Position numbers and translations under genes: made by a program. DNA of 39,789 nucleotides from a virus: IMG/VR virus record IMGVR_UViG_3300020122_000438, positions 1 to 39,789 of that record. The stretch is one strand, 5' to 3'. The notes beneath the pieces were generated by a model. The model saw only the letters and a list, made by a program, of their open reading frames with translations. It was not told the DNA's origin and did no database searches. This document shows, one piece after another, positions 24,086 to 25,802 of this stretch (positions are counted from its first letter, which is position 1; each line of letters begins with the position of its first letter).

Positions 24086-24972
24086 TGTCAAATCCGAACC
24101 CAAGATTTACTGGGATTTTCATTCCAGTTGAGATTTTAGAAATTGAAGAGCTTAGCCCTTTGGAGCAATTTTTAATTTCTTGGATAGATGCCCTCTATTG
24201 TGAAAATCATGGGGGTTGTTTTGCTAGTAATGACTATCTCGCCGAAAAATTAAGGGTCAAAGAAAATACTATTTCTAAAGCTTTGACAAATCTTAGAAAA
24301 ATTGGACTACTAGAAGACGTATCGTTTGACGGGCGTCATCGGGTAATTCGTGCAAAAATCGGTGAATTTGTTGAAAAAAGCCAATCCAAGGCAGCATTGG
24401 ATTTAAATCCAAGGCAGAGTAGGACAAAAATCCAACCCAGAGTAGGAGAAAAATCCATCTCCTCATATATAGATAGTAAAGTAGAGAGTAAAGAAGAGAA
24501 ACCCTCCTTAAAGGTTCCAACCGAAGAACGAGCGCCTAACGGCGACATGCCAGCTAAAGCTGGCGAGGAGGAATTTGATTCATCTTCAAAATCATCCAAG
24601 AAAAAGACAGAGCATTCGCCTCAAGTGCTCGAGGTTTGCGATAAGATGATTCAACGTCTAAAAGACGCCGAACCGGGTTACAAACCTCCAAGGAATCTCA
24701 TTCCCATTCTGAATGAAATCGATTTTATGATCCGTCTTGATGAGAGAGATCCTCAGAAGATTTTAGATATTTTAACTTGGGCTTTAGGAGATAGCTTCTG
24801 GAAAGATAAGATGTTTAAGCCTAATCCTGCTAAATATCTTCGCGGTCAATTCCTTCAGCTCCAAATCAGAATGGAATCGACGCCAGCAAAAAAAGAACGT
24901 AAATTCCTTCCAAGCTCCAATCAGGCCGAAGCAGTCAGAATCATGAAAGAAATGTCGGAGGACTCAGTATGA
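24085..24972 (+). CDS. Replication initiator (lambda O-like organisation)
   Basis: A 295-residue protein. Residues 45-90 form a winged helix (FASNDYLAEKLRVKENTISKALTNLRKIGLLED). Residues about 95-175 are a low-complexity linker whose DNA holds the iterons. The C-terminal domain (about 185-270) includes WALGDSFWKDKMF and NPAKYLRGQFLQLQ, a conserved ending in phage initiators. DNA binding at the N terminus, origin in the middle of the gene and a C-terminal protein-contact domain copy the layout of lambda O. The helicase loader follows, overlapping by four bases. Confidence 0.82.
   Translation: MSNPNPRFTGIFIPVEILEIEELSPLEQFLISWIDALYCENHGGCFASNDYLAEKLRVKENTISKALTNLRKIGLLEDVSFDGRHRVIRAKIGEFVEKSQSKAALDLNPRQSRTKIQPRVGEKSISSYIDSKVESKEEKPSLKVPTEERAPNGDMPAKAGEEEFDSSSKSSKKKTEHSPQVLEVCDKMIQRLKDAEPGYKPPRNLIPILNEIDFMIRLDERDPQKILDILTWALGDSFWKDKMFKPNPAKYLRGQFLQLQIRMESTPAKKERKFLPSSNQAEAVRIMKEMSEDSV
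24383..24474. repeat. Four 23-bp iterons: replication origin in the initiator gene
   Basis: AATCC recurs at 24383, 24406, 24429 and 24452, exactly 23 bases apart. Units 1 and 2 share AATCCAAGGCAG; units 2 and 3 share AATCCAA..CAGAGTAGGA.AAA; unit 4 keeps AATCCA. As 23 is not a multiple of three the repeat is at DNA level, not protein level. A 16-bp perfect palindrome (TTGGATTTAAATCCAA, 24397-24412) joins units 1 and 2, and an AT-rich stretch follows to about 24490. This is the structure of an iteron origin. Confidence 0.85.
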
Positions 24973-25802
24973 AATTAGCCGGAAGAATCGGTCATGAAAT
25001 GATAAAACCAGCTTCAAAGCCTAAGATCGTCCATCAAATCGCCGTTATAGGCGGATGGAAACATCTCGATAAGCCTACTTTATCCAGTGAACTCCAATGT
25101 CCGATTTGTCAGAGTAAAGAACATCAGACACCCTTGATCAATCCTGATTTAGGAGATGAAAGATTGTGGTTGTGCGGGAACATGTCTTGTTTCATCCACA
25201 GCAAGGACAACATGCCAAGCGCTACCACCACACCACCCATACCGAAACGTGCGGTTCTGTGGCCTTTATGGTGCGAAATTAACGATATTGGTGATATATA
25301 CCACGACGTTAAGTTTGAAAAGATCGAACAAGTGGAAGGCAAGATCGAATATCTCAGAAAATTTGTAGCCAATCCAACAGGAATAATCTTAATGCAAGGC
25401 GATAAAGGAACTGGAAAGACTTATTGTTCACTAGGATTGTGTGAATTTATGACACGAACAGAAACTTCCGTGATTTTTATGACCCAAAAACAAATGTTAG
25501 AAAAATGGCTCGAAACATTCAAAAATGAAAAGTCTACGAATTTTTCTCATAGGTTGAAAGAAGCCTCTTTACTAGTGATCGACGACTTCGGAACGGTTGA
25601 ACCCACTCCAGGATTCATGACATTTTTCATGGATTTAATAAACGCAAGAAACCAGTGGAAAAAAAGAGGGACTGTGTTAACAACAAATTTGACTGATCAG
25701 AAATTAGCAGAATTTTGTGGAGACGCTCTTTCCGATCGACTAAATACAGGAAAGAAATTCCATTTTGAAGGAAAATCTAGAAGAAAAAAAACAGTTTTGT
25801 AG
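24969..25802 (+). CDS. DnaC-like AAA+ helicase loader with zinc site
   Basis: A 277-residue ATPase that would load the host replicative helicase at the phage origin. Walker A is GDKGTGKT (144-151), Walker B is LLVIDDF (201-207), sensor 1 is TTN (238-240) and the Arg finger is SDRL (255-258). The N-terminal ~90 residues carry Cys44, Cys47, Cys69 and Cys74, a likely zinc ribbon for contact with helicase or initiator. No helicase is encoded in this genome. It overlaps the initiator by four bases, as lambda P follows O. Confidence 0.88.
   Translation: MKLAGRIGHEMIKPASKPKIVHQIAVIGGWKHLDKPTLSSELQCPICQSKEHQTPLINPDLGDERLWLCGNMSCFIHSKDNMPSATTTPPIPKRAVLWPLWCEINDIGDIYHDVKFEKIEQVEGKIEYLRKFVANPTGIILMQGDKGTGKTYCSLGLCEFMTRTETSVIFMTQKQMLEKWLETFKNEKSTNFSHRLKEASLLVIDDFGTVEPTPGFMTFFMDLINARNQWKKRGTVLTTNLTDQKLAEFCGDALSDRLNTGKKFHFEGKSRRKKTVL

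Follow-up and report, generated by a model that had tools for sequence, protein, structure and literature searches.

Short repeats inside the coding sequence of a replication protein could serve the protein or the DNA, and the locus studied here raises the question of which applies and what such DNA might do. We analysed IMG/VR virus record IMGVR_UViG_3300020122_000438 over its full 39,789 nucleotides (hereafter the window); the same contig encodes a P22-like portal protein. An initial annotation, made from the sequence alone, had proposed an iteron-type replication origin within the initiator gene.

Architecture of the initiator locus

The initiator gene P0001 (24085–24972, plus strand) encodes a 295-residue protein with a winged-helix HTH_36 domain, a disordered linker and a helical C-terminal domain. 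It matched Pfam HTH_36 (PF13730, E=5.7e-10) at 39.3 bits, above the gathering cut-off of 25, as well as the PHROG groups phrog_2880 and phrog_391 (replication initiation/O-like); the Pfam match, together with a helicase-loader gene as neighbour, places P0001 among the HTH_36 phage and plasmid initiators. AlphaFold predicted the winged-helix domain (wHTH) at residues 14–90 (codons 24124–24354, plus strand; pLDDT mostly 83–93 from residue 21) and disorder at residues 101–173, so that the repeats, at about codons 100–127, fall at the start of the linker; the initial annotation had placed them inside it. The C-terminal helical domain (residues 179–264, codons 24619–24876, plus strand; pLDDT about 92–97) presumably contacts the loader or the helicase; its relatives in L002 (44% identity) and L005 carry different N-terminal parts, and it gave no structural match of its own in a search made with the whole protein.

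Structure comparison matched the wHTH to RepA_N initiators (4pql and 4pt7, Z 9.4 and 9.2, rmsd 2.5 over 86 residues; 5kbj was also near, Z 8.7), at scores only slightly above those of other winged helices. Pfam searches at E up to 1 returned neither RepA_N (PF06970) nor Phage_rep_O for P0001, whose only O-like assignments are the PHROG groups, and a PDB sequence search gave no match.

Directly after the initiator, as initially described, lies the gene for a DnaC-like AAA+ helicase loader, P0003 (24969–25802, plus strand; phrog_50, E=3e-27; PF01695, 1.6e-10; PF00308), which overlaps the stop codon of P0001; a homologue with 51% identity adjoins the initiator in L005. Ahead of its AAA+ domain, the P0003 N-terminus (24969–25230) carries a CPIC...CGNMSC pattern that suggests a zinc-binding module. 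Directly 5′ of the initiator, the 100-residue P0002 (23783–24085) showed 22% identity to the wHTH (E=0.004, a single comparison); it looks like a degenerate winged-helix copy and could compete with the initiator or regulate it.

A 23-bp repeat array in the linker codons

The array spans 24383–24463 on the plus strand, with units starting at 24383, 24406, 24429 and 24452, an exact 23-bp period. The initial annotation had counted four AATCC-led units; the period holds, and the fourth proved to be a half unit (24452–24463) that reads AATCCA and then diverges, leaving three full iterons: AATCCAAGGCAGCATTGGATTTA (24383–24405, with the dyad ATCCAA/TTGGAT), AATCCAAGGCAGAGTAGGACAAA (24406–24428) and AATCCAACCCAGAGTAGGAGAAA (24429–24451), the latter two with imperfect TCC/GGA dyads. 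Every full unit is an imperfect dyad whose TCC and GGA arms flank CAG. Agreement between neighbours reaches 20 of 23 bases for units 2 and 3, the maximum originally reported, and 17 of 23 for units 1 and 2. The 16-bp palindrome ascribed to the first units, TTGGATTTAAATCCAA (24397–24412, no strand), is indeed perfect, and is so only where units 1 and 2 meet.

This array was the top-scoring tandem self-match of the entire 39.8-kb window (score 34 at lag 23, with a runner-up of 18 over lags 10–60). Shuffling the codon order of the initiator gene gave a maximum of 16 (n=2000), and synonymous recodings gave a mean of 7.7 and a maximum of 20 (n=1000; p about 0.001), bearing out the earlier argument that a period not divisible by three is not caused by the protein. 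As a positive control, the known lambda O iterons scored 15 (p=0.002) by the same recoding method. The unit is unique to the array, the next-best site in a mismatch scan of the whole window differing at 8 of 23 positions, and a DNA-level search of phage records returned no match. Cumulative GC skew, which had been suggested as a check, was uninformative, since in the window it follows gene orientation and makes no turn near 24.4 kb.

Adjoining the array is the AT-rich stretch that the initial annotation had noted, here delimited to 24464–24503 (no strand, with a purine-rich top strand), a candidate DNA-unwinding element that contains two 12-bp repeats, TAGATAGTAAAG and TAGAGAGTAAAG, at 24470–24493; Tandem Repeats Finder likewise reported period 12 at 24470–24499.

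Linker repeats across HTH_36 initiators

A scan of the genome collection with the single protein as query found no relatives; a profile search with the winged-helix domain gave 80 viral loci. Together with loci from other scans, Leptospira replicons and the window, these made up 116 genes, reduced to 66 representatives with less than 75% identity in the winged-helix domain, of which 62 had enough linker to test. In each we scored lags 20–25 in a 240-nt segment that took in the last 30 nt of the matched domain and ran on from there, against recodings preserving the protein and each gene's codon usage.

Linker repeats beyond the needs of the protein were found in 34 of the 62 testable genes at p<0.01, where 0.6 would be expected. 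Their periods were 23 (20 genes), 22 (13 genes) and 24 (one gene). The same test was positive in none of 175 neighbouring genes, none of 66 wHTH parts and one of 52 downstream segments of the same genes. Over lags 8–60, the excess appeared at 22 and 23 and at their doubles, 44 and 46; a lesser peak stood at 12. The first check that had been proposed, a search of related genomes for similarly placed repeats of the same period, thus came out positive, with clean controls. Linkers kept without repeats, which had been named as evidence against an origin, are not typical of the family: of the 54 genes encoding 200 aa or more, 33 were significant at 0.01 and 41 at 0.05, and the 13 of 54 that were non-significant at 0.05 may use degenerate, in-frame-spaced or external sites. 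Proteins shorter than 150 aa gave 0 of 8 at 0.01.

The position of the arrays also recurs. In the 37 arrays with p≤0.01, the start lies a median of 28 nt past the wHTH codons, and the roughly 40 nt that follow are 71–78% AT, compared with a gene mean of 62.5%; past the array, 16 of 36 had more 12-bp repetition than synonymous recoding would give (p<0.05). At L064:3301–3437, a 45-bp sequence in the initiator linker is repeated three times almost perfectly and apparently arose by in-frame amplification of a 22+23-bp double iteron.

These results bear directly on the idea that the repeats are a protein-sequence repeat of a low-complexity linker, or chance. Such linkers are indeed repetitive and Asn/Lys-rich in several relatives; however, the 23-bp period is out of frame, protein-preserving recoding falls short of the observed score, and in all but one of the 34 significant arrays of the family the period is 22 or 23, neither a multiple of three. 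With the recoding null, the family periods and the clean controls all against it, we regard this explanation as refuted and give it practically no weight.

Iterons and their putative recognition domains

The iteron arms differ by lineage: TCCAA/TTGGA in the window and L053–L057, GTGCC/GGC in L068 and L070, GTGAA/TTCAC in L022 and L075, and AGTTCC/GGAAC in L067. Iteron k-mers covaried with the wHTH (Mantel r=0.40, p=0.0005; 0.398 with the C-terminal domain partialled out) and showed no covariation with the C-terminal domain (partial r=0.025, p=0.25). Two loci display this separation individually: L068 has the C-terminal family of the window with a different wHTH and different iterons, whereas L053 has the wHTH and iterons of the window with a different C-terminal domain. 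Both the covariation and these two loci are what would be predicted for a recognition cassette, although physical adjacency also plays a part in the pattern; because the wHTH and the iterons lie side by side, linkage may account for some of it. What the tests demonstrate is selection on the DNA at the position of the array and a fit of the array to its matched recognition domain.

Related replicons in Leptospira

A matrix built from the three units of the window was used to scan about 5 kb, on both strands, around rep genes of Leptospira. Its best match fell in the rep linker of L018, L012, L013, L017 and L019, replicons that comprise L. kobayashii pE30-1, L. mayottensis p2, L. interrogans and L. 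kirschneri plasmids and L. biflexa p74; shared gene descent may contribute to these matches. In LE1 Orf5 the linker site ranked second, and in LA1839-type reps the matrix ranked no linker site first, with a related dyad visible; both have only one or two degenerate motif copies. Synonymous-site variation at the motif was low in the LA1839 group (rank 20–43 of 473 windows) and not in the lcp3 group, and because the lcp3 group lacks it we do not count this suppression as evidence.

Several further observations were made in these replicons. In the LE1 fragment, the window iteron is best matched at L003:2613–2635, outside rep and about 100 bp upstream of parA; this is possibly a second Rep-binding or regulatory site. 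The L. kobayashii plasmid has a second strong match, AATCCACGACCGAGTCGGACCAA, at L018:5119–5141, about 2.4 kb from the rep linker. Seven LA1839-type rep linkers (L046–L052) keep the dyad ACTAGTCNGTCTAGT while its central base alternates between A and T (Gln/Leu), which should be the one position indifferent to a two-fold symmetric reader. The rep of L. mayottensis plasmid p_Lmay_MDI272 (L011:2387–3060) is unannotated; tblastn joins it from two pieces, and it may be frameshifted.

Published vector work provides functional data for this group. Zhu et al. replaced the LE1 rep of a shuttle vector with the lcp3 rep alone and reported that four Leptospira strains could be transformed with the lcp3 vectors, whereas a vector deleted for rep yielded no transformants (PMC4338851). 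The lcp3 rep DNA alone thus supports replication, which places the origin in that fragment or next to it, as flanking sites may contribute. The lcp3 replicon (L015) belongs to the same Leptospira group as the matrix-matched replicons. Like the window, the Leptospira Rep genes (LE1 Orf5, lcp3 LIL50003, p74 and pE30-1) encode a related wHTH (best local matches 31–51% identity) and carry the same motif at the same linker position; in contrast to the window, their C-terminal parts are smaller and unrelated, the motif is recognisable in only one or two copies, and parAB-type genes rather than a loader adjoin rep. The word iteron was absent from the Leptospira papers that we searched for it.

The adjoining parA/parB genes in these relatives, and the finding that shuttle vectors failed to enter hosts that already had the same rep (PMC4338851), would also suit a parS-like partition or incompatibility site that pairs or segregates replicons and has no origin function. 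We consider this very unlikely, since rep without parAB is enough for vector replication (PMC4338851), none of the window proteins searched was recognised as a partition protein, and many of the family matches are phage contigs.

A further alternative is that the repeats are an operator through which the initiator or P0002 regulates its own operon, with replication starting elsewhere. Dyad sites are typical of operators and P0002 is a weak wHTH relative, but the array sits some 300 nt into the coding sequence, arrays across the family precede an AT-rich tract with 12-bp repeats, and a related replicon replicates from rep DNA alone (PMC4338851), all of which make the operator reading improbable. 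Autoregulation could nevertheless exist alongside an origin role.

Discussion

The array consists of regular direct repeats inside an initiator gene, beyond what the protein needs, as in an intragenic iteron origin, and this is very likely what it is. The analysis shows the repeats and their excess over the needs of the protein, their recurrence in relatives, the AT-rich tract with its 12-bp repeats and the covariation with the wHTH; binding, melting, helicase loading and origin use are inferred. We propose with high confidence that 24383–24503 is a theta-type replication origin embedded in the initiator gene, at which the wHTH would bind the iterons, the AT-rich tract would melt and the loader would bring the helicase. 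The proposed order is winged-helix codons, dyad iterons and AT-rich 12-mers. The winged-helix domain would occupy the three dyad iterons and the half site, with the 23-bp spacing, about two helical turns, aligning the bound proteins on one face of the DNA; initiator assembly would then melt the adjoining tract with its 12-bp repeats, and the C-terminal domain and the DnaC-like loader would together recruit the host helicase.

This kind of system is already known, as three precedents illustrate. In pSK41-type RepA_N plasmids, the origin is inside the rep gene and the linker encoded there is dispensable (PMC5703833). RepA_N initiators (pSK41 Rep, PF06970) resemble the window in having Rep boxes in the linker codons between winged-helix N-terminal and C-terminal domains (PMC5703833) and in being the best structural match of its wHTH; they differ in Pfam family and site sequence, and the DnaC-like loader is the window phage's own. 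The Staphylococcus plasmid pPR9 combines a PF13730 N-terminal domain, the Pfam family of the window, with a different origin region in a mini-replicon that replicates autonomously, an approximately 500-bp unit of N-terminal domain plus origin differing as a block from pSK41 (PMC5703833); unlike the window, its Rep has a pSK41-type C-terminal domain. Our test found no significant 17–26-bp repeat in pPR9 rep (p=0.30), in which CCGTTTACTGAAAATCCGGATACGG recurs 54 bp apart, and the same lags in phage 77 rep fell below significance (p=0.065), with TTGAC/GTCAA dyads visible.

Lambda O has inverted-repeat iterons in mid-gene and an adjoining AT-rich tract (PMC7466680). The likeness to the window extends to the spacing of these iterons (ATCCCTCAAAACGAGGGA, 20/24/23 bp), the AT-rich tract on the loader side and the loader gene next in line. 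In contrast, the window initiator has no Pfam O-family match (E up to 1), its iterons are unrelated to those of lambda beyond TCC/GGA, and its loader is DnaC-like AAA+ rather than P. The initial description had cast the locus as a lambda O/P plan with another initiator family and iteron; the closest precedents are the RepA_N initiators and the PF13730 Rep of pPR9 rather than lambda O.

For the family, we think it probable that phage and plasmid HTH_36 initiators of several bacterial phyla have linkers written mainly by the DNA, with 22–23-bp dyad iterons matched to the preceding wHTH and then 12-bp AT-rich repeats, and that wHTH and origin form one cassette moving between unrelated C-terminal domains. 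The proposed origin-in-initiator layout recurs in most of the related phage and plasmid genes compared and so seems to be a rule of the family, not an isolated case, and the family-wide 22–23-bp rule with matched recognition domains seems undescribed in the open-access papers searched. It offers a possible reason for the Asn/Ile/Lys-rich linkers of HTH_36 initiators. If the cassette reading is true, it would also place the origins of LE1-type vectors and Leptospira plasmids, which are unmapped, giving a concrete origin candidate for Leptospira vectors, and the natural wHTH/iteron pairs would constitute a library for recognition studies. For phage and plasmid initiators of this large and little-studied class, the origin and its matched recognition domain would be readable from sequence, making origin prediction from metagenomic contigs possible.
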